21,400 nucleotides of DNA from a virus. Position 1 is the first letter of the stretch, and each line of letters begins with the position of its first letter. The notes below the pieces were generated by a model, which was not told the origin of the DNA, made no database searches, and saw only the letters and a program-made list of their open reading frames with translations. The stretch spans positions 1-21,400 of the IMG/VR virus record IMGVR_UViG_3300009320_000939. One strand, given 5' to 3'. The translations under genes and the position numbers were made by a program. Positions 602 to 17,472 of the stretch are shown here, in pieces.

Positions 602-2584
602 TCAGAATCCAATACCAACGCTTCTGACCTTGCGGCCTGTCTTTTGCCCTGGTGTTTCCTGATTTTCCGGCACCTTCCAATGCATCATCCCCTGAATATC
701 ATGGGCCACCAGGCATAAAACCGCGCAGTCCCACAGATGGTTGGCCTTGCCGGACGGGCATTCCCATAAACCCTTTTCGTTGGTAAACTCGGCCGTCATG
801 TGGCGGGCCCAGTCCGGGGCAAACTCGGCGTTTTCGTGCCAGGCCCCGGGATCGGCCGGGTCCACTTCCAGTATCCGGGAAAGTTCGTCTTTGTAATATT
901 TGGTGTTGACGTTGATGGCTTTCAGGCCGCCGGGGATCGGCTTTTGACGGCCGGGGTAATATTCCAGGTTACGCCACGTAAACGGCTGAGCCATGGTGTC
1001 GCGCCCGAATGAAGGGAATATCCTTCCGCGATGTTTGCGGCAAAAATCGTACACCTCGGACGTGCGGTGCCCCAGGGCATCCTGGATGGTCATCATCACC
1101 GGGTAGCGATTGCCCTCGGCATCCAGATACTGATCTTCCCACAGCACCCGTTCCAAGGCCCGAAAATCCGACTTTTTGTCGCTGCCCACCATGGCCAAAT
1201 ACCCTTCCCGGATGCCCCAGGATTCTTTTAAAAGCTCGGTGCCGCCGTACCCAAAGGCCCGGATGCGGTACCAAAGGCCGTGATCCTGGGTGTCCACACT
1301 GGCCAGCAGGCCGGCCACAACCCCGCCGCCCGGGACCCGGCCCCTGGGGCGGTCGTCGCGCAACAGCAAAATGCGATCTTCGTGGCGCTCCTTGACATAC
1401 TCTTTCCACGGCCCGGCTGCAAAACCGTTTAAAAAGTCTTTTAGCTTGATTTTATCTTTCAGGCCCTTTAAAAACGCGGCCGCGCATTCGGACAAACTCA
1501 CAAAAGGGGAAAGCCAGGCCGGTATGTGAAACCCGATCACCCGGGGGCGGAAGGTTTTTAAATATGTAAACAGGGAAAGCCCCTTTTCGCGGTCGCGCCA
1601 CTCACCCATACGCACCGCAAAGTTGCGCTTGGCGTCCGACCACTCACTGTTACATTTTTCGCACTCGTAATGCGCTGTTTTTTTGGTTTCAACGATGCGT
1701 GCATCAGCCCCGGATCCGTCCGGCCACTTGATCTGCTCAAAATTCATTTTCTGCATGGCGCCGCAATCCGGGCAGTGCACCCAAAAATCGAACACCACCT
1801 CGGCCTCGGGCGCAATCATCAGGCCGGGGTTGTCAGGATCCGGGCAGCCTTCCAGGGCCCGGGACACACCTTCATCTTCCTTGGTCGGGGATGAAAGGCG
1901 CCACAGCTTGCGCATGTGCGGAAAATTGCGCATCCGTTTGCGCAGCAGATCCACCGGCCCGGCCTCTTTTTTGCCGACAGTTAAAGGATATTTGTTTTCT
2001 TCATCCGCCACGCCGTAGGGCAGGGGCCGCTGCGCCAATCGCGCCGCCGACGTGGCCCAGGCCATATGGATAATCTGGTGTTGTAGCTTGATTTTAAGCG
2101 TGGTTTCATCGTCTTCATACCCGGTGCGGTAAGATGCCAGGCGTTTTGAATCCCGAATGGTGGTTTGCAGGCGGTCCTTGCATGTATCGCCGGACTCTTT
2201 TTCATTGGGCGCAACCCACAGCACGTTGCCCGGCTTGCGGTCGGCAGCATACCCCAGACAATTGATCACGCACTGGGTTTTGCCGGTCTGGGGCGCGGCG
2301 CACACGATAATTTCCTGCACCGAATCAAAAAACGATGCATCCATGATCCCGGCCAGGTACGGCGTGGTGTCGTTTTTCCAGCGGCCCGGCATGGGCGAAT
2401 CCTGGGGCAGCACAATGTGATTTTCAACCCACTTCGACGGCCGGATGTCGCGCTTTTTGCGCAGCATCTTCTTTTCGCCCCGCGACCACTTGACGGTCAT
2501 TTTAACGGGCTTGTCCGGCGTAGCCTGCAAGGCGAAGCCGGAAAGCCAGGCCGGATCAATCTCTATCGGTTGCGGTATCGCCAT
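602..2584 (-). CDS. Phage terminase large subunit, GpA family
   Basis: This is the ATPase-nuclease motor that cuts and packages phage DNA (lambda gpA type). The length of 660 aa is normal for the family. Visible features: Walker A APQTGKT at about 97-103; acidic Walker B DEEN at about 194-197; coupling motif SSPTKEDEG at about 231; a zinc-ribbon insertion with CPDC (271-274) and CEKC (308-311). The nuclease half has ASVDTQ (D431), TIQDALGHRT (D502) and a late NHLWDCAV motif. The start ATG (2582-2584) overlaps the preceding small Cys-rich gene by 29 bp, which suggests translational coupling; the local SD is weak. Its promoter-proximal end abuts a 54-bp tandem duplication. Gene context (HTH proteins upstream) fits a packaging module with structural genes farther left. 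Confidence 0.95.
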   Translation of the reverse strand: MAIPQPIEIDPAWLSGFALQATPDKPVKMTVKWSRGEKKMLRKKRDIRPSKWVENHIVLPQDSPMPGRWKNDTTPYLAGIMDASFFDSVQEIIVCAAPQTGKTQCVINCLGYAADRKPGNVLWVAPNEKESGDTCKDRLQTTIRDSKRLASYRTGYEDDETTLKIKLQHQIIHMAWATSAARLAQRPLPYGVADEENKYPLTVGKKEAGPVDLLRKRMRNFPHMRKLWRLSSPTKEDEGVSRALEGCPDPDNPGLMIAPEAEVVFDFWVHCPDCGAMQKMNFEQIKWPDGSGADARIVETKKTAHYECEKCNSEWSDAKRNFAVRMGEWRDREKGLSLFTYLKTFRPRVIGFHIPAWLSPFVSLSECAAAFLKGLKDKIKLKDFLNGFAAGPWKEYVKERHEDRILLLRDDRPRGRVPGGGVVAGLLASVDTQDHGLWYRIRAFGYGGTELLKESWGIREGYLAMVGSDKKSDFRALERVLWEDQYLDAEGNRYPVMMTIQDALGHRTSEVYDFCRKHRGRIFPSFGRDTMAQPFTWRNLEYYPGRQKPIPGGLKAINVNTKYYKDELSRILEVDPADPGAWHENAEFAPDWARHMTAEFTNEKGLWECPSGKANHLWDCAVLCLVAHDIQGMMHWKVPENQETPGQKTGRKVRSVGIGF

Positions 2585-3251: not shown

Positions 3252-4013
3252 TTATTCAATTTGAAGTGAAATACCTTTATAAACATAAGCACCTTTAATC
3301 TTTCGCTTTTCAAACCGCATTCCAAGCCACTGGCCGAATCGCCGTTGTTTGGGAGGATTTTTCGAAACTTTTTTCGTCCACCAATTTTCGAAACAATCAT
3401 AGAGAACAGATGCGCCTTCATTCAATTCCGGTCCGATCTCGCAACACTCATCAAGAAAGTCTGAAAGAATATCCTCGCTGGACCAGGCCCTGCGGATTGT
3501 CCGCTTCCGCCTGTATTCCGCGAGGGCCTGTTTTACGGTGGAACATGATCTGGGATGGGATTTTTCCATCCTTGGGTGGTGCCATTGGGATATATATTCC
3601 ATAGGAGGCGGGTTTAAACCTTGCTTCTGCCACAACAGGTAGCCTTCAACCAAGTTTATTTTATCAGTCCATAAACCTCTTACGGACATAGCTTCTTCTC
3701 TTAGCCTTTTTAATATTTCATTCATATATTTTATTTGCGCTCGTAATAGGCTTAATTCTGTTTCAAGCTCCCCCCATTTTTCTCTTAACCATGACGCTGT
3801 AATTTGTTTTGAAAAACACTCTGTAATTTCTATAAATGTTTTATCTCCTATTCCTTTAATTTTTTTCAACTGACCACTTTCGACCATTTTTAAAATATCT
3901 TCTATAGTATGATCAATAATCAAATAAGATAATATTCTTGTTGCTCTCATGCTAAGCTCGAAATCACAAATCAATATATTTCTTAATTTTGTTCTAATAA
4001 CTACATTGGGCAT
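3252..4013 (-). CDS. RNAP alpha-CTD-like domain fused to a D5 helicase C-terminal domain
   Basis: This 253-residue protein has two recognisable ends. Residues 8-70 resemble the C-terminal domain of the RNA polymerase alpha subunit: ELSMRATRIL and GIGDKTFIEI match the two helix-hairpin-helix parts, keeping the equivalents of E. coli R265 (R23), K298 (K58) and E302 (E62), but with R26 where N268 would be. Residues 75-115 are probably coiled coil. Residues 118-253 parallel the last 130 residues of the D5 helicase at 6286: shared WQK-GL-PPP, DFLDECC, GAS-L, FE-WW, PKQ--FG, FEK-KI and a Y-Y-G core. It lacks every ATPase motif. The ATG follows a perfect SD (GGAGGT) in the end of the upstream gene. 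A DNA-binding regulator or competitor of the helicase is inferred. Confidence 0.75.
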   Translation of the reverse strand: MPNVVIRTKLRNILICDFELSMRATRILSYLIIDHTIEDILKMVESGQLKKIKGIGDKTFIEITECFSKQITASWLREKWGELETELSLLRAQIKYMNEILKRLREEAMSVRGLWTDKINLVEGYLLWQKQGLNPPPMEYISQWHHPRMEKSHPRSCSTVKQALAEYRRKRTIRRAWSSEDILSDFLDECCEIGPELNEGASVLYDCFENWWTKKVSKNPPKQRRFGQWLGMRFEKRKIKGAYVYKGISLQIE

Positions 4014-6028: not shown

Positions 6029-6314
6029 AATTTTATTTTATTAATATCAGGACCTTTAAAAAAAGGTCCTGTTTATAGTCATATTTATAATTTATTAATA
6101 TTATTATTAATAAATATAGTTATGGATGATAGGACTATAAGACGGTATAAACATTCAAAGTGATACTTAAAAACAAAGTTTTTCTTATATATAGGGCCTC
6201 AATGGTCCTATATGGCAAAAATAGAAATCCGTTAAATTAAAACAAGTGATTTAAAATAGTTATAACTATATAAAATCAGGACAATTTAAATCAAATGGTC
6301 CTGATCGTCCTGAT
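6029..6314. other. Candidate replication origin, AT-rich with several palindromes
   Basis: The 257 bp between the helicase and primase genes, plus the last codons of the helicase, hold four symmetric elements: CAGGACCTTT and its complement (6048-6071, 10-bp stem, 4-nt loop); ATTTATTAATA and its complement (6090-6115, 11-bp stem); ATATAGGGCC with GGTCCTATAT (6189-6213); and the 14-bp palindrome ATAGTTATAACTAT (6256-6269). The octamer ATCAGGAC occurs at 6046 and 6275, and inverted as GTCCTGAT at 6298 and 6307. Such structure beside the primase and helicase is typical of phage and P4-like origins. The elements are seen; origin function is inferred. Confidence 0.5.
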
Positions 6315-7986
6315 TGGGCCCGTAACGGATCAGTGTTTCAAGTTCAATTTCTTTTATAGCTTTATTTTGATCCAAATATGCTTGCAGGTGATCTTTAAGC
6401 CGTACGCCATAATATCGATAAACACCGCCGATTTTATCTTTTTCGAACTTTTTACCCATCAAATTACCGAATGATTTTTGTTTGGGCGCGTGTTTTGAAA
6501 CATTGATCTTCCACCAGACTTCAAAAACCGTAAAAAGATGCGATGCCCCGCCGGTGGACTCTTTTTCTGTAAGGCAGCATTCATCCAAAAAATCCAGCAG
6601 CACATCTTCCCGGCGCCGGTATTTTTGTTTGGCCGCTAAAATCTCCGGCGGCGGGTCCAGGCCATCTTTTTGCCACAACAGACAACCTTCCACTATCCAG
6701 GCCAGAATACCCGGGGCCTGCGCTTTGAGTTTTTCAGCTAAATACAAATCCGCTTTACGTTCGTGCGGCTCTTTGGGATCGCGGTTGACAAACGATATAT
6801 TGTGCGGGATCTGCAGAATTCTTTCCCAGAAGGCATCATCATCCGCCGGCGCGTGCGGCTCGTAATTGGTTAGTAAAAAAAGCGTATGGGTCGGTTTGAA
6901 TGTAGTCGGGTATTTATCGTGCGGATTGCGGCCGGTAAGCTCTTCACCGCCTGAAAACCATTTTACCCGGGCGGCTGAAAACCGCGCGTGTTCGTCTGTT
7001 TCAGTGGCAAACGCAAACCGCAGCCCGCGCAGGGACATAATATCCGGCGTGGGCCCCGATGAACTACCCTTGGTCGCTTGGGCCAGCAGCATTTCCGGCG
7101 TGATCGGCGCGGCCAGCTGGCCCAAAACGTGCAGCAGCATCCCCATAAAAATAGACCCTTTGCCGTTGCGGCCGCGCTTGCCGATCAATACCGCAAAAAT
7201 ATGTTCGATCACCGCGCCCACCAGAGCGCAGCCGCAAAGTCGCTGCATAAAACCGACCACCGCCGCATCATCATCATAAATTTGCATCAGCGCCGATTCC
7301 CAGGCGTCCCTGGGTGCATCGATCCCGGCCCATTTTACCCGGCAGGCTTTCAGAAGGTAATCATCCGGCCGCCCACCTCTGAAAATACCGGTTTTTAAAT
7401 CCACAACACCATTAGGGCAGGGCAGCAGCCACGGTTGATTATCGATTTCATCCCCTTGGATGGCGACCGGATCGTCGGTCGTGTGCGCAAATAAAAGGCA
7501 GTTTTGCCGGCGGGATTTGCCGCGCAGGGCGTTTATACGGCTTTTAATCGATTTTCTAACCGATTTCATGTACCCCAGGGCCGGGTCTTTTTCATCCATT
7601 TTCTTGATTTCGATATCAACCCGGTTAAATTCCTTCTGATATTCGGCCACAACACCTTCCACCGCGGCCAGTGCCGCGTCCATGTAATCGATTTCCCAAT
7701 GGTGGCCATTCCAGATCATCCAACAGGCCATTGCTTTATTGTAGAGAAATTTCCCACGATACAATTCCTTGAAAAGCATCCCGTCGCCGAATTCATTGGC
7801 GTTTAAACAGTCGCGGATGAACCACGGCAGAATTTCCTTTACAGGATCATCCGTTTTATACTTCTCCGCCTCGGCTGCTTTACGCTCTTCAACCTGCTTT
7901 TTATACCGCTCAACCTTATCCTGGTCCGGTCGGTCCGTTTGATCCGTCAAGCCGCCACCTTTAAAGGAAATTCTGCCGTGGTTCAT
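6286..7986 (-). CDS. D5/P4-family primase-helicase (SF3 ATPase)
   Basis: About 566 residues from the ATG at 7984-7986; an in-frame TTG lies two codons earlier. This is the replicative helicase of the phage. Order: a variable charged N-terminus, a D5_N-like region (about 60-230, with PCPNGVVDLKTG), then the superfamily 3 ATPase: Walker A GKRGRNGKGS (271-280), FATETDE Walker B region (about 329-334), LLTNYEP sensor asparagine (376) and FWERI arginine (391). The C-terminal wing-helix region (about 435-545) carries WQKDGLDPPP and DFLDECC and is the paralogue of the protein at 3252-4013. It overlaps the Lar-like gene by 26 bp. Its 3' end contains two GTCCTGAT copies of the origin octamer. Confidence 0.93.
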   Translation of the reverse strand: MNHGRISFKGGGLTDQTDRPDQDKVERYKKQVEERKAAEAEKYKTDDPVKEILPWFIRDCLNANEFGDGMLFKELYRGKFLYNKAMACWMIWNGHHWEIDYMDAALAAVEGVVAEYQKEFNRVDIEIKKMDEKDPALGYMKSVRKSIKSRINALRGKSRRQNCLLFAHTTDDPVAIQGDEIDNQPWLLPCPNGVVDLKTGIFRGGRPDDYLLKACRVKWAGIDAPRDAWESALMQIYDDDAAVVGFMQRLCGCALVGAVIEHIFAVLIGKRGRNGKGSIFMGMLLHVLGQLAAPITPEMLLAQATKGSSSGPTPDIMSLRGLRFAFATETDEHARFSAARVKWFSGGEELTGRNPHDKYPTTFKPTHTLFLLTNYEPHAPADDDAFWERILQIPHNISFVNRDPKEPHERKADLYLAEKLKAQAPGILAWIVEGCLLWQKDGLDPPPEILAAKQKYRRREDVLLDFLDECCLTEKESTGGASHLFTVFEVWWKINVSKHAPKQKSFGNLMGKKFEKDKIGGVYRYYGVRLKDHLQAYLDQNKAIKEIELETLIRYGPNQDDQDHLI

Positions 7987-8293
7987 CCGCAATCTCTACC
8001 TGCCATTTTCGCCATTCCAACACCGCCATATCCGGCATCGGCTGCGGATCAATTCCAGCTTCACACCCACAATCCGGACACATCACCGAAAAACCACTAA
8101 AACCAGGGAATCCACACCAGCCCTCGGCATATTCCACCAGGCAACAACTCCGCCCTTGACCGCTCATTACCGATGAAAGAAAACCGGATAGTGAGTTCTT
8201 GGTAATGGTTCCCCTTCGTTCATGGGCTCGCTCATCCTTGCAATTCGGGCAAATCCTATCTTGCGGCTCTAAACACTTATAAAATTTAACCAT
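7961..8293 (-). CDS. Lar-like zinc-ribbon protein
   Basis: This 110-residue protein has CPNC (15-18) and CPDC (72-75). The second pair is followed by a run ending AVLEWRKW, the A-x-x-x-W ending typical of Lar/restriction-alleviation zinc ribbons (CPxCG, then an alanine and EAWNxR). Several further cysteines (C50, C51, C60) lie between. Lar of Rac prophage relieves host type I restriction; many phage relatives have unknown roles, so an anti-restriction function is only inferred. An AAGGA lies about 10 nt before the ATG. The helicase start is inside its 3' end, so both are probably translated from one message. Confidence 0.65.
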   Translation of the reverse strand: MVKFYKCLEPQDRICPNCKDERAHERRGTITKNSLSGFLSSVMSGQGRSCCLVEYAEGWCGFPGFSGFSVMCPDCGCEAGIDPQPMPDMAVLEWRKWQVEIADEPRQNFL

Positions 8294-9913: not shown

Positions 9914-9922
9914 TTTTTTTGG

Positions 9923-10867
9923 TTAATTAAAAAGGCCGACTTGTTTTTGCTCCCACGCCACCTTGTCAAGGTTTTTAATAGCCTGTTTGTAATACGATTC
10001 TTTTAATTCAACACCAACAAACTTACGGCCCATTTTCAACGCCTGATACCCGACCGAGCCAACGCCCGAAAACGGATCTACCACAACATCGCCCGGATTA
10101 GACCATAAATCTAAACACCTGCCTATTGTATCAAGTTGCAGCGGGCAAATATGTTTTTCATCATTCTCGTCTCTGGCAGCCCGTATGTTTAATGTGTTAG
10201 TTTGGTTAATATCAAACCACACGGGGGATGCGTATCGCTGCCAAACCTCATGGCTATATTTGTTTTTTCGTGGATCATCGTTTTTTTGTCTTTTTGGCTC
10301 TGGCATTTCGCCTATATACCGCTCAAACCCTCTGCCGTGGGATATTGGTTCCGGGTTTTCTCCCGCCTTGCGCATTGTAATTATATAATCAGGCAGGCCC
10401 ATATTACACCTTGACGAGTCTTTTGATATTTGCTTATGGGCCAACCCCAAAGCCTTTGTCCTGACAGCCTGCACAAGCGGATCTTTCCATATACAAACCC
10501 TTGAATGGTAGATAAAGCCAGCCGCCTCAAATAGCCTTATAATTGATCCAGAAAAATCTTTTAGTCCGATAAATCCATCTTTTGTAATAGTAGCCAGCAG
10601 GTCCATACAGTGAACACTAACCAACCTGCCGGGCATTAGTGCCCTGTATATATCTTTTACCAAAAACCCAAAATGCTTATCAAACTCGCCCTTCTTGCAG
10701 TTTCCAACATCCCTCTCTGAGTCAGAATATGTAAACAGGTCCTCAAACGGCGGGCTAAACAAAAAATAGTGCGCCGAGTTGTCAGGGATGGGCTTAATAA
10801 CCTCAACCGAATCCCCATGATACATTGCCCAACCATCACCAAGTTTCTGATCTAAAACATTAGCCAT
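9923..10867 (-). CDS. DNA methyltransferase (N4-cytosine/N6-adenine type, beta class)
   Basis: This 314-residue protein should transfer a methyl group from S-adenosylmethionine to an exocyclic amino group in DNA. The catalytic motif SPPF is at 38-41. The SAM-binding FxGxG-like motif is DPFSGVGS at 264-271, preceded by motif X-like ICPLQLDTIGRCLDLW and followed by FVGVELKESYYKQA. Catalytic motif before SAM motif is the beta order. SPPF leans towards N4-cytosine, but N6-adenine cannot be excluded. The start ATG overlaps the helicase 3' end by 16 bp and has GGAG about 8 nt upstream. No restriction endonuclease is adjacent, so it is most likely a phage protective or regulatory methylase. It forms a pair with the SNF2 helicase. 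Confidence 0.92.
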   Translation of the reverse strand: MANVLDQKLGDGWAMYHGDSVEVIKPIPDNSAHYFLFSPPFEDLFTYSDSERDVGNCKKGEFDKHFGFLVKDIYRALMPGRLVSVHCMDLLATITKDGFIGLKDFSGSIIRLFEAAGFIYHSRVCIWKDPLVQAVRTKALGLAHKQISKDSSRCNMGLPDYIITMRKAGENPEPISHGRGFERYIGEMPEPKRQKNDDPRKNKYSHEVWQRYASPVWFDINQTNTLNIRAARDENDEKHICPLQLDTIGRCLDLWSNPGDVVVDPFSGVGSVGYQALKMGRKFVGVELKESYYKQAIKNLDKVAWEQKQVGLFN

Positions 10868-12243
10868 TGCGGGAGCTCCATTTCTTTTTTGGGGTTATAT
10901 GGTGCTGTTTTGATCTCAAGATTTTCTAATTGGTGAAGTGTATTTTTTTTCATATACCCCACCATTTCATGAAACATATTCTTTGCATCAGCCTCCTTTC
11001 TTTTAACGTTATCAAGAACAGACTTCTCTTTTTCGCCAATCACAATATGCAGGTTGACGGGCTTTTTTTGACCGAACCGCCAACACCGCCGGGTAGCTTG
11101 ATAGAACTGCTCATAACTATCAGACAACCCAAAAAATATAACATTATTACACACCTGCCAGTTTACACCAAAGCCAGCGATTTTAGGCTTTGTCACGAGC
11201 GATTTTATATCACCATTCGAAAACCCAATTATTGAATTTTCTTTATGTTCGACAGAATCCGAGCCCTTGACCTCGACACACCCACTAATAGACTTTTTAA
11301 GCATGTCGCTTTCGATGTTAAGGTTGCACCATGTAAGCCAAATTTCGCCGGGATCGTCTTGAATAATTTGCAGGGTCTTTTTTAATCTTCCGGGCATAGA
11401 TTCTTTTCTTGATGCCCGGCGCTCTGAAAGCGTTCTCGCTTCTTCTGTAAATAAAGACGTTTTTGCGCCGTTGTATTTTATAATGTGTTCGTGAATGTAA
11501 AGCGGGGGCAGGTCAAAGCCGTTGTTTGGGTAGCCGACATCTTGCGGTTTTTGCATAATTACGGCCCATGTTGAAATCCACTCCCAAAACTTATTATCTT
11601 TGACATACCCCTTCAGCCTCCATGTTCCTGTTTTTGAAGCATCGTTAATGAAATACATGGACAGCATTTCTGCCCGCGTCATTATCCCTAAAAACTCTGA
11701 CGTATTGCCAAGTTCCATATAATCGTTTGGTGCCGGGGTTGCTGTGCAGCACAGTTTATACGGTGTATATAAAAAAGCATCGATTATGTAGTTGCGTATC
11801 TTGCCGGCAAAGTTTTTCAGGATGCTGGATTCATCCAGCACGATCCCAACAAATTCACCCGGATCAAATTTTTCCATGCGCTCATAATTGGTTATATTGA
11901 CGCCCGAGACCATATCGGATTGATCCTTGCACGCATTAACATCGATGCCGAACTTCTGGCCCTCATGTTTCGTCTGAATCGACACCGCCAATGGTGCAAA
12001 CAACAGGACACTTCCGCCTGTTTTGCGGCAAACCTTATCGGCCCATTCAAGCTGCATCAGAGTTTTGCCAAGACCGCAATCTGCGAAAATGGCCGCCCTG
12101 CCCTTGAACAATGCCCACCTAATCAAAACCTTCTGCCAGTCAAAAAGCATGGGGTTTAAATCGTCAAGCGAAACATCAAATCCGCTTGCTTCGTGCTGTA
12201 TTATTTTCGACTCCAAAAACTTCTGATATTCCATTAAATGCAT
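10852..12243 (-). CDS. SNF2-type DEAD/DEAH helicase
   Basis: This 463-residue superfamily 2 DNA translocase has LFDWQKVLIRWAL (about 34-46), Walker A ADCGLGKT (54-61), a DESS box in VGIVLDESSILKN (about 132-144), motif III TATP (167-170) and motif VI QATRRCWRFGQKKPVNLHIV near the C-terminus. The order and the TRR-RxGQ motif are typical of SNF2-like phage helicases. These are often found next to a methylase in phage replication regions, where they may remodel or unwind DNA for replication or recombination. The ATG (12241-12243) follows AAAGGAG at 10 nt. The 3' end overlaps the methylase start, so the two are probably co-translated. Confidence 0.93.
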   Translation of the reverse strand: MHLMEYQKFLESKIIQHEASGFDVSLDDLNPMLFDWQKVLIRWALFKGRAAIFADCGLGKTLMQLEWADKVCRKTGGSVLLFAPLAVSIQTKHEGQKFGIDVNACKDQSDMVSGVNITNYERMEKFDPGEFVGIVLDESSILKNFAGKIRNYIIDAFLYTPYKLCCTATPAPNDYMELGNTSEFLGIMTRAEMLSMYFINDASKTGTWRLKGYVKDNKFWEWISTWAVIMQKPQDVGYPNNGFDLPPLYIHEHIIKYNGAKTSLFTEEARTLSERRASRKESMPGRLKKTLQIIQDDPGEIWLTWCNLNIESDMLKKSISGCVEVKGSDSVEHKENSIIGFSNGDIKSLVTKPKIAGFGVNWQVCNNVIFFGLSDSYEQFYQATRRCWRFGQKKPVNLHIVIGEKEKSVLDNVKRKEADAKNMFHEMVGYMKKNTLHQLENLEIKTAPYNPKKEMELPQWLMF

Positions 12244-12259: not shown

Positions 12260-12997
12260 TTAGGCGGCTTTTTCGGTTTTTTGGTTTTGGAGAAGTGAGA
12301 ATTCTTTCAGCCAGTATAAGACCTGGCCTTCGGGTGTTCGAACTTCATCATAGGCCACGCTCCGGATCTTTTTCAGCACATCCGGAAATTTTGAAAAATC
12401 GATCACCAGGCTGCAATCCGATGGAATCGTTGCCGGCGCCGCCTTCTTTTTTTTGTTCGGTTCAGGCTTTTTAACGGATTTCTTTTTTATCCCGTTTTTA
12501 AATCTTCGGGCCATGCACTCTTTGCATATCTCCAATGGCTTCTGACTGGGCCCATGAATCTGAAAATTGGTATCTACAGGCTGCGGTTCGCCATTAGATT
12601 CACAATCAGGATCTTTACAAACCTGTGTGGCGGCTTCATCTTCACGGGCCCAGTCAGAAGCCATCTTTATTTTTGATAACCGTTGGCTTATTGCAGCAGG
12701 GGAAAGGTTCAGCAGCTGGCCGAGATTCTGCTGTGATAATTCCGGATGATTTGCCTGCAGTTCCGACAGAATCTTATCTTTGAGGTCTGAATATTCTCTT
12801 GTTCTTACTCCTTGCCTAAGAAAGGCCTTAATATCAAGCCCGGCATCCCGGACCATTTTGACGACCAGAAGGTTGGGATGCAGTTTTGTTTCATCGTCCT
12901 GGTTGTCGATCGGTAATTTTTCGCCTTTTTGCTTGATACAGATGGCGCATGTTTCAGGCGTCAAATTCGAATTATGGATACACACTTCTTTTTCCAT
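12260..12997 (-). CDS. Zinc-binding HTH protein, unknown role
   Basis: This 245-residue protein does not match a family I know. Visible order: an N-terminal CxH/CxxC knuckle (C6, H8, C17, C20); a helix-turn-helix segment KILSELQANHPELSQQNLGQ then LLNLSPAAISQRLSKIK (about 75-110); a second cysteine cluster C127, C132, C158, C161; a basic linker of lysines; and a C-terminal segment with VIDFSKFPDVLKKIRSVAYD. The HTH suggests DNA binding, probably a regulator or replication initiator acting early. A strong SD (AGGAGGG) precedes the ATG at 12995-12997. It opens the replication operon just after the small beta-rich protein, 16 bp before the helicase gene. Confidence 0.75.
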   Translation of the reverse strand: MEKEVCIHNSNLTPETCAICIKQKGEKLPIDNQDDETKLHPNLLVVKMVRDAGLDIKAFLRQGVRTREYSDLKDKILSELQANHPELSQQNLGQLLNLSPAAISQRLSKIKMASDWAREDEAATQVCKDPDCESNGEPQPVDTNFQIHGPSQKPLEICKECMARRFKNGIKKKSVKKPEPNKKKKAAPATIPSDCSLVIDFSKFPDVLKKIRSVAYDEVRTPEGQVLYWLKEFSLLQNQKTEKAA

Positions 12998-13428: not shown

Positions 13429-14031
13429 TTATAAATCGATATTTACTTCCGCTTCAGACACTACCCAGCGGCGGGGATTTTCTCCGCGACCGGAGACATC
13501 GGCCAGATAAATTTTTATGTCGTGGGGTGAAAAGCCGGTGCGGTTTCGGAAGCCTTCAACCAGTCTGTCAACACTCTGCAATATGTCTTTTTCAAGTTCG
13601 TCTTTCTCTTCTTTAAATTCTTGTATTTCCATATCTAAAGCTTCAGATATTTCAAGCAAACGCGCAAAACTTGCCGTTCTATAGTCGTTTGCCTCATAAC
13701 GCTGGATTTGTTGTTCTTTAAGACCGAGCCGTTGCGCAAGCTTCTTTTGAGTTAGTCCAGACGCGATGCGCGCTTTTATTAGAGTCAGAGGTAGTTCCTC
13801 CAGAGATCTGATTCGCGGTATAGTTACCTCTCCAGATTGTAATTCCTCATATTCACTGAGCTGTGTTTTAAGCTCTTCTAATTGGCTGCGTAGAGCCTTG
13901 CTTTCCAACTTCTGGAGAATGGGGTGGATCTTGTTATCCTCAACTGACTTTTTTTGAATAGATGCCAAGGCACTTTCAAATTTTTGTGCCTGGGCCTTGG
14001 TGATACGATACTGTCTCTCGTTTTTTATCAT
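13429..14031 (-). CDS. XRE-family HTH regulator, antitoxin-like
   Basis: A 200-residue protein. Residues 1-65 are helical (MIKNERQYRITKAQAQKFES, then a coiled coil SQLEELKTQLSEYEEL). An XRE helix-turn-helix follows at about 82-115: LIKARIASGLTQKKLAQRLG then LKEQQIQRYEAND, typical of Cro/C1 and HigA-type antitoxins. The C-terminal part has SPHDIKIYLADVSGRG. The N-terminal NERQYRITKAQA signature is familiar from antitoxin-like XRE proteins. The SD GAGG sits in the end of an upstream open frame with no start (14036-14167), as if it once followed a partner gene. It lies between integrase and att, so it could be a cargo antitoxin or an integrase regulator. Confidence 0.8.
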   Translation of the reverse strand: MIKNERQYRITKAQAQKFESALASIQKKSVEDNKIHPILQKLESKALRSQLEELKTQLSEYEELQSGEVTIPRIRSLEELPLTLIKARIASGLTQKKLAQRLGLKEQQIQRYEANDYRTASFARLLEISEALDMEIQEFKEEKDELEKDILQSVDRLVEGFRNRTGFSPHDIKIYLADVSGRGENPRRWVVSEAEVNIDL

Positions 14032-14035
14032 GTTG

Positions 14036-14167
14036 CTAAACCTCTTGAAGGTTGATCATTATTATTCCTTTAGGTTCACCAGTTTCTCTATCAATGGCAA
14101 AAAATTCCAAAAAGGTTTTCCCTGACCCGTTCTCTGTAAATTGGGCAGGAAAAAGCTCTCCTCCATA
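14036..14167 (-). pseudogene. Orphan C-terminal tail of an unknown gene after integrase
   Basis: Directly after the integrase TGA, and in the same frame, 43 sense codons run to a TAG at 14036-14038. The product is protein-like: GELFPAQFTENGSGKTFLEF then AIDRETGEPKGIIMINLQEV. There is no ATG start in this frame; the only possible one is a TTG inside. The end carries the SD of the XRE gene 4 nt before its ATG, the geometry of a co-translated toxin-antitoxin pair. I infer the tail of a partner gene whose 5' part was replaced by the integrase. Its family is unrecognised. Confidence 0.45.
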
Positions 14168-15453: not shown

Positions 15454-15665
15454 ATTTCATCACCGCCGATCTTTTTAATGATGCTCTGAATTACCGGGAC
15501 CCGGCTCGAATCGATATCGAATTTTTCTACTGGTTCATTTGCAATGTCGATGTCAATCAGCACATATCGAAGCCGCCACACAGGTTTGTCACGATAAGCA
15601 CACTCCAGTTCATTAACCGCGTATTCGTAAATTTCATCAATTTCTTTTTGGTCGAATCTTTTCAT
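15450..15665 (-). CDS. Small acidic protein, unknown
   Basis: 71 residues from ATG 15663-15665, supported by GGAGA about 8 nt upstream; an upstream GTG would add 20 residues with no support. The product is MKRFDQKEIDEIYEYAVNEL then ECAYRDKPVWRLRYVLIDID and a C-terminal IDSSRVPVIQSIIKKI. It reads as a small alpha/beta protein, unrecognised. Its stop overlaps the excisionase-like ATG (ATGA), so the two are coupled in one leftward unit leading to integrase. Confidence 0.65.
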   Translation of the reverse strand: MKRFDQKEIDEIYEYAVNELECAYRDKPVWRLRYVLIDIDIANEPVEKFDIDSSRVPVIQSIIKKIGGDEI

Positions 15666-16707: not shown

Positions 16708-17472
16708 TTAAAGCTCCGTGAGTGATTTTTTAAGGTAGTAATCGGCGCCCAGCGAATCGAGCAGGGCCACGGCGTCGGTGCGAAATTGCAGCCAGTCATG
16801 TTTTTGCTCGATGTCCGGATCGTGGTTGATCTTGCCGACTTTCCAGTGGTCCACGAATTCGTGGCATTCGCGGACAATCCGCAGGGCCTGGTCCGGGATG
16901 ATCACCGGCTCCAACGACACCCAGGTTTTGATGCCGACCTTTTTGGCCAGCCGTATGGTTTCGACCCGGACCCAGTAGTCCGCGGCATTGGGCTCCCAGT
17001 ACGCGCAATCGGCAGCCCGGTTTAATGTCAGGGTTGTGCCGAAACTTGCTTTGGGATAATCTTTGATCAGATAAAAATCACGGATGGCACGCAGGCCGCC
17101 CTTGGTTAAAATGGTAAAGGGCAGATCGTGCTGGATCAGGATTTTGATAATGTTGCGGGTTAGTTTAAGATCGATTTCGGCCGGCTGGTAGGGATCGCCC
17201 ACAAAGGACACCAAAATTTCGGGGCAGGGGTTGGACGCCAGTTTGTAAATTCGGGCCAGTTTGGCGGCGTCTCTGCGCACTTTGATCAGCACGTCGCTTT
17301 TGGGCTCCGGACCGGCAAAGAAATCAGAGCCGCCGCCAGCCATGCGGGCCTTGACAAAGGGCGCATCCTGGTTGAAACAGTATTTGCAACCGTGGGTGCA
17401 GCCGCTGTACGGGTTCAGGGCCAAACCGGCATACTCCCGGGCGCGACCTTTGGGCTGGTAGATGATATTCAC
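16708..17472 (-). CDS. SPL-like radical SAM enzyme
   Basis: This 254-residue iron-sulfur enzyme has the cluster motif CTHGCKYC (C25, C29, C32), the Cx3Cx2C of radical SAM proteins, in SGCTHGCKYCFN. It continues with typical (beta/alpha)6 features: VSFVGDPYQPAE, TLTLNRAADCAYWEPNAA, and VSLEPVIIP. The overall order is that of spore photoproduct lyase-like phage radical SAM proteins. These are often found in phage genomes, with no agreed substrate. The start is GTG (17470-17472) with GGAGG 8 nt upstream, overlapping the stop of the 39-aa membrane protein. DNA repair or base modification is possible; nothing nearby decides it. Confidence 0.88.
   Translation of the reverse strand: MNIIYQPKGRAREYAGLALNPYSGCTHGCKYCFNQDAPFVKARMAGGGSDFFAGPEPKSDVLIKVRRDAAKLARIYKLASNPCPEILVSFVGDPYQPAEIDLKLTRNIIKILIQHDLPFTILTKGGLRAIRDFYLIKDYPKASFGTTLTLNRAADCAYWEPNAADYWVRVETIRLAKKVGIKTWVSLEPVIIPDQALRIVRECHEFVDHWKVGKINHDPDIEQKHDWLQFRTDAVALLDSLGADYYLKKSLTEL

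Follow-up and report, generated by a model that had tools for sequence, protein, structure and literature searches.

An alpha-CTD-like domain joined to a D5 helicase-type C-terminus in a phage protein carrying two antisense copies of its own phage's sequence

Introduction

Several described systems resemble parts of the locus reported here. Primase-helicases of the D5/P4 family (TIGR01613, PF03288) possess an RFX-type winged helix and the motifs VEGxLLWQ..GL.PPP, DFLDECC, FG and Y.G, all of which recur in P0001, the protein that is the subject of this report. The C-terminal domain of the bacterial RNA polymerase alpha subunit (alpha-CTD, PF03118) has an HhH fold that is also recognised by profile in P0001, along with equivalents of its residues R265, G296, K298 and E302. 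Among phage regulators of the Bro-N (antirepressor) type, one protein joins the D5 C-terminal module to a regulatory domain and has no ATPase. At the level of DNA, templated insertion by template switching is known in yeast and tumours; such insertions (MMBIR) at breaks in yeast and cancer genomes consist of pieces some tens of bases long, in many cases inverted, which derive from other parts of the same genome and show short junction homology (PMC11724301, PMC8421209). The palindromic elements of Rickettsia are likewise short in-frame insertions in unrelated genes.

P0001 is encoded in a stretch of 21,400 nucleotides of viral DNA (IMG/VR record IMGVR_UViG_3300009320_000939, positions 1 to 21,400), referred to below as the window. 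The window overlaps by 119 nt at both ends with a contig of 19,735 bp (L007/L022; 3300009320_000830), and the two close to a circle of 40,897 bp. This circle represents the genome of a temperate phage, with integrase, repressor, gpA terminase, capsid and tail genes.

Results and Discussion

Composition and setting of the gene

The P0001 gene (4013 to 3252, minus strand) is predicted from the list of open reading frames to yield a protein of 253 residues. Its ATG comes directly after the stop codon with which the ORF before it ends, and a GGAGG motif lies a few bases 5' of it. The gene is a compositional chimera: the codons for residues 1-120 have a GC content of 29% (GC3 22%) and the remainder 40-67%, compared to 50-57% in the genes for the upstream neighbour P0003, primase, D5 helicase and terminase. 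P0001 lies between the gene for P0003 (4014-4778, minus strand), an HTH and coiled-coil protein whose homologues in relatives are found between the D5 and terminase genes, and, downstream, that for the large terminase subunit of gpA type (602-2584, minus strand; Pfam GpA_ATPase, E=1e-54). In one such relative (L083), with a terminase 50% identical and a P0003 homologue 37% identical to those of the window, the slot of P0001 is taken by different genes. The position before the terminase gene is thus variable and accessory, which points to P0001 as an accessory regulator rather than a component of packaging or replication. An AT-rich ORF nearby (2556-2837) features a perfect in-frame tandem duplication of 54 bp at 2584-2692.

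The gap between the D5 and primase genes contains an AT-rich, palindromic intergenic stretch (6029-6285), a candidate origin or operator. Palindromes of the type GGACCTTTT are found both in this gap (6049-6070) and after P0001 (3223-3232). With 6 matches against 1.6 expected, a number reached in 2 of 100 shuffles and hence statistically weak, GGACCTTTT can be put forward as a weak lead to a possible operator shared by the 3' region of P0001 and the D5/primase gap.

An alpha-CTD-like domain followed by a coiled coil

The AT-rich half of the gene encodes an alpha-CTD-like HhH domain (3813-3989, minus strand; residues 9-67), identified by Pfam, hhalign, the GC profile and a structural model. Pfam RNA_pol_A_CTD (PF03118) matches these residues with E=6e-7 and 29.5 bits, above its curated cut-off of 23.8, and the generic HHH_5 profile is far weaker (E=0.009). 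Comparison by hhalign with a profile built on nine sequences, alpha-CTD and alpha-CTD-like, gave a probability of 86% (E=5e-6). In the alignment, R23, G56, K58 and E62 correspond to R265, G296, K298 and E302 of E. coli alpha, while R, I and T stand in place of N268, C269 and S299, i.e. three of the seven classical contact residues of alpha-CTD are changed. The single-sequence models have four helices in this region with pLDDT 70-87 (about 80), Foldseek searches with single-sequence models returned no significant PDB match and leaned weakly towards the generic HhH of RuvA/PolX, and the sole match in a PDB sequence search was a weak one to the Thermus alpha-CTD (1doq, E=1.1). A Pfam scan of the 253 residues detected no alpha N-terminal domain.

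Residues 73-112 (3678-3797, minus strand) form a predicted coiled coil of five heptads (L76 W80 L83 L87 L90 I94 M97 L101 L104 A108), over which the model draws one long helix. All 12 a/d positions are apolar, which was equalled in 3 of 20,000 shuffles. A match of P0001 to locus L053 of another genome (G120) was dismissed as a chance match of the coiled coil.

Relationship of the C-terminal domain to the D5 helicase

The rest of the protein (3255-3653, minus strand; residues 121-253) proved by sequence comparison to be paralogous to the C-terminal part (Pox_D5, RFX-type winged helix) of the P4-family D5 primase-helicase ATPase encoded in the same window (6286-7992, minus strand; Pfam D5_N, E=1e-23; NCBIfam primase_Cterm). 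The similarity begins only past the ATPase, at the VEGxLLWQ motif, with 68% identity over residues 121-139, and extends through the wing with 52% identity over residues 179-251 (E=6e-21); BLASTP of P0001 against this D5 protein gave E=3e-27. Neither the Pfam scan nor the D5 alignment revealed a D5_N, Walker or AAA+ segment in P0001. The phage family phrog_1156 matches the same module with E=2e-8, and Pox_D5 (PF03288) itself falls just under its cut-off of 21.4, at 18.5 bits (E=0.0027). One further profile comparison was discarded as circular, the profile having included P0001. The C-terminus of the window's D5 protein is either the parent or a paralogue of this domain; a tree of D5 C-termini did not place P0001 firmly beside it.

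Among 14 D5 C-termini collected, all match Pox_D5, five match RFX_DNA_binding (best E=3e-7) and two match Cdc6_C, and a profile built from them finds the C-terminus of a giant-virus primase as well as, among PDB entries, the winged helix of RFX1 (E=0.05). These family matches indicate that the D5 C-terminal module is a winged-helix DNA-binding domain. P0001 itself has no direct match to RFX_DNA_binding, its relation to RFX passing through the D5 C-terminal family, and its C-terminal module is accordingly best described as a predicted DNA-binding winged helix of RFX type. The C-terminal half of the single-sequence AlphaFold model was poor and unusable.

The original prediction had proposed, from inspection of the letters, an alpha-CTD-like N-terminus retaining four E. 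coli contact residues, a C-terminus parallel to the end of the phage's own D5 helicase, and a lack of ATPase motifs. All three proposals are borne out by the profile, alignment and BLASTP results above: the alpha-CTD profile outperforms the generic HhH, and the C-terminal similarity is highly significant.

Two antisense inserts

In the alignment of P0001 with the D5 C-terminus there are exactly two clean gaps, one of 21 residues (138-158) and one of 9 residues (170-178), and each coincides with a piece of DNA copied in antisense from elsewhere in the same phage. Insert 1 (3538-3602, minus strand; net 63 bp) matches, at 63 of 65 nt and in inverted orientation, part of a metallopeptidase-like ORF in the tail region (L007 3820-3884, i.e. 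circle 25101-25165); a search with the whole of P0001 had returned contig L007 on the strength of a match around the first gap only. Insert 2 (3480-3506, minus strand; net 27 bp) is identical over 25 of 25 nt, 3480-3504 corresponding to 16894-16870, to an inverted stretch (16870-16894, minus strand) within a gene at 16708-17472, assigned to the radical-SAM family by a family match. Both inserts are multiples of three in length and leave the reading frame open, and once both are removed the Pox_D5 score of P0001 rises to 21.0 bits. The parallel drawn in the original prediction between P0001 and the helicase thus holds as paralogy, but it overlooked that the two gaps are antisense copies of the phage's own sequence. 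Both inserts are present in all three strains that cover P0001, namely the window and contigs of two other metagenomes, which are available as assembled contigs rather than reads and may stem from one study. The assembly of sample 3300009314 (contigs G001/G003) breaks at 3477-3480, adjoining insert 2, which hints at another allele; none was found at this break when sought.

Copied snippets elsewhere in the phage genome

Further snippets of this kind are evident in the circle, in which six inverted repeats that are non-tandem and exact over 19 nt or more were counted. The same count in six other phage genomes is 0, 0, 0, 2, 1 and 0, and in random sequences of similar composition inverted repeats reach 15-18 nt at most. 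Contigs from other metagenomes, 99.3-100% identical to the phage, differ by the presence or absence of such snippets. An inverted 29-bp copy of 7813-7841, from D5 codons, occupies 7962-7990 in the window and in G001; it is absent from G002, which keeps a stop/start overlap of two genes at this site and therefore appears to hold the ancestral allele, the copy being in all likelihood a recent insertion. The window also features a compound snippet from the major capsid gene (8190-8231; an inverted copy of circle 36475-36500 followed by a direct copy of 36507-36523), of which G002 has a longer version (29+34 nt), and a direct 24-nt match (8098-8121) to circle 22759-22782 in a tail gene. The small zinc-ribbon-like ORF at 7961-8293 is a patchwork of capsid, tail and D5 snippets, with other versions in G002.

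In the HTH gene at 12260-12997, the linker includes a patchwork stretch (12535-12664) with two inverted snippet copies, 12535-12564 being the inverse of 12635-12664 and 12611-12637 that of 15569-15595. Within the latter stretch, at 15576/15577, three strains have 0, 6 (TGCCAG) and 6 (TAGAAA) extra bases, and it is the window allele that agrees with the HTH gene's inverted snippet. G002 has an insertion of 52 bp, of which, together with its edge, 47 nt derive from circle 34121-34167, with a junction homology of 7 bp (TTTTGTC). Larger differences exist as well: the region 13636-14161 with a repressor-like HTH_3 ORF is missing in G001 and G002 (junction overlap 7-8 bp), and a module of methyltransferase and SNF2-type helicase genes (9922-12243) is missing in G001 (junction overlap about 11 bp).

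Since the snippets are polymorphic between near-identical strains, self-templated insertion must be recent and recurrent in this phage. A distant copy, unrelated flanks and junction microhomology, the features by which templated insertion is recognised, are shown by the 52-bp insertion of G002, with the 29-bp copy of the window, absent from G002, as a further case, and we infer template switching as the mechanism of which the overall pattern is a signature. No description of such insertions in phages was found in a literature search, to which most subscription journals were out of reach. It is tempting to go further and imagine an elevated, perhaps phage-promoted, copying of the phage's own 20-65-nt pieces, mostly inverted, into early accessory genes, which repeatedly makes new in-frame protein segments and of which the chimeric P0001 regulator would be one product; we regard this extension as distinctly unlikely.

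Other origins of the inserts were considered. Whole-genome amplification is known to yield chimeras with inverted pieces, and the 119-nt overlaps at the contig ends represent breaks in the assembly graph, so that the inserts might be artefacts of assembly or amplification. They recur, however, in the window and in the contigs of two other metagenomes, with both flanks continuous, in frame and matching the alignment gaps, which makes an artefact very improbable. An origin of the inserts from a mobile palindromic element resembling those of Rickettsia is hardly credible: the 65-nt stretch of insert 1 can form a hairpin on one strand (z = -2.2), but IMG/VR matches to its 28-nt core are confined to contigs of this phage group, the sources are internal parts of genes, and the snippets differ from each other in sequence and length, and such an element was rejected as the source of the 65-nt insert. 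A diversity-generating retroelement was likewise rejected, as the copies are mostly inverted and the two mismatches in insert 1 show no adenine bias, nor did the ORF lists reveal an evident reverse transcriptase.

Possible function of P0001

The two domain matches together with the coiled coil are best read as a dimeric, two-headed dsDNA-binding regulator, and with moderate confidence we propose that P0001 is a phage accessory regulator binding dsDNA as a dimer through its alpha-CTD-like and RFX-type winged-helix domains. An alpha-CTD-like HhH of foreign, AT-rich origin would have been joined via the five-heptad coiled coil to the paralogue of the D5 C-terminus. After duplication, the C-terminal domain gained its two antisense in-frame inserts, in a manner that fits microhomology-guided template switching, a process that is still generating strain differences. 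Dimerisation by the coiled coil would present two alpha-CTD-like and two winged-helix heads; the winged helix would recognise sites like those of the helicase C-terminus, e.g. in the AT-rich stretch 6029-6285, the alpha-CTD-like domain would add a second contact in the minor groove, and binding would control how the early region is expressed or replicated.

Three other functional readings deserve consideration; competition with the helicase at the origin and a link to transcription had been suggested in the original prediction. P0001 might occupy the DNA sites of D5, or mix with D5, and so throttle replication, as its 52% identity to the helicase C-terminal module and its location in the same genome and on the same strand would allow; we consider this somewhat unlikely, since P0001 has no oligomerising ATPase, the 48% divergence leaves its DNA specificity open, and the combination of Bro-N with a D5 C-terminus favours regulators generally. 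A coupling to transcription, in which the alpha-CTD-like domain mimics host alpha at UP elements, sigma or activators and thereby recruits or titrates host RNA polymerase, would agree with the preference for the RNA_pol_A_CTD profile over a generic HhH and with the four retained residues. This reading is nevertheless doubtful, given the replacement of N268, C269 and S299 and the occurrence of alpha-CTD-like domains in proteins other than polymerase; moreover, the polymerase contacts lie mostly outside the HhH and are unreadable from sequence. To a similar degree it is doubtful that P0001 is recombination debris, i.e. a chimeric ORF of recent origin that serves no selected function and owes its extra length to random insertions, as the GC break, the two inserts, the lack of homologues and the variable slot might suggest. 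Both insert lengths are multiples of three and the frame is open, residues conserved in the D5 family are retained at 52% identity, the ribosome-binding site is strong and the heptads are perfect; a decayed chimera is less likely on account of the retained residues, the open frame and the ribosome-binding site. A dimeric accessory regulator remains the reading that we prefer, and it may simply serve as a repressor or antirepressor.

Distribution and comparison with known systems

Scans for proteins that combine an alpha-CTD-like domain and a D5 C-terminus, which detect close relatives best and may let a distant case escape, found none in 50,697 phages, 72,556 plasmids, a genome collection and 395 genomes of one phylum, and in IMG/VR the pairing was seen in near-identical contigs only. 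Homologues of the same architecture being restricted to this near-identical phage group, conservation is unusable as an argument. No paper on such a fusion was found in a literature search, most subscription journals lying beyond its coverage. P0001 appears, from these comparisons, to combine known DNA-binding modules in a new way. The two partners have been used separately: in another genome, locus L050 encodes a protein that unites Bro-N and the winged helix of a D5 C-terminus, an apparent precedent for joining this module to a phage regulatory domain, and alpha-CTD-like domains outside rpoA were found in one (G196) of the ten genomes checked. Loci L072 and L073 of G196 encode proteins other than RpoA in which the alpha-CTD-like domain occurs once or several times, in one of them as three copies.

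P0001 is a further case in favour of the idea that regulators are made from helicase C-termini. Of possibly greater importance than the domain pairing are the inserts: they show, at the nucleotide level and between near-identical strains, phage proteins lengthened by copies of the phage's own unrelated genes, and with this strain-level evidence it becomes possible to test directly how new coding sequence arises in phages. Compared to a D5/P4-family helicase, P0001 is devoid of D5_N and AAA+ segments, carries two self-copied inserts, and is fused to another DNA-binding domain. Unlike RNA polymerase alpha it has no alpha N-terminal domain, has N268, C269 and S299 replaced, and is a phage protein of 253 residues with a coiled coil, and in contrast to the Bro-N regulator of locus L050 it carries an alpha-CTD-like domain in place of Bro-N. 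With respect to Rickettsia palindromic elements, the phage snippets do not represent one repeat, each copying a different phage gene. Finally, the insertions differ from those of yeast and cancer genomes in that they lie within open genes of a phage, keep the frame in the case of P0001, and are polymorphic between strains, template switching being here the probable mechanism.
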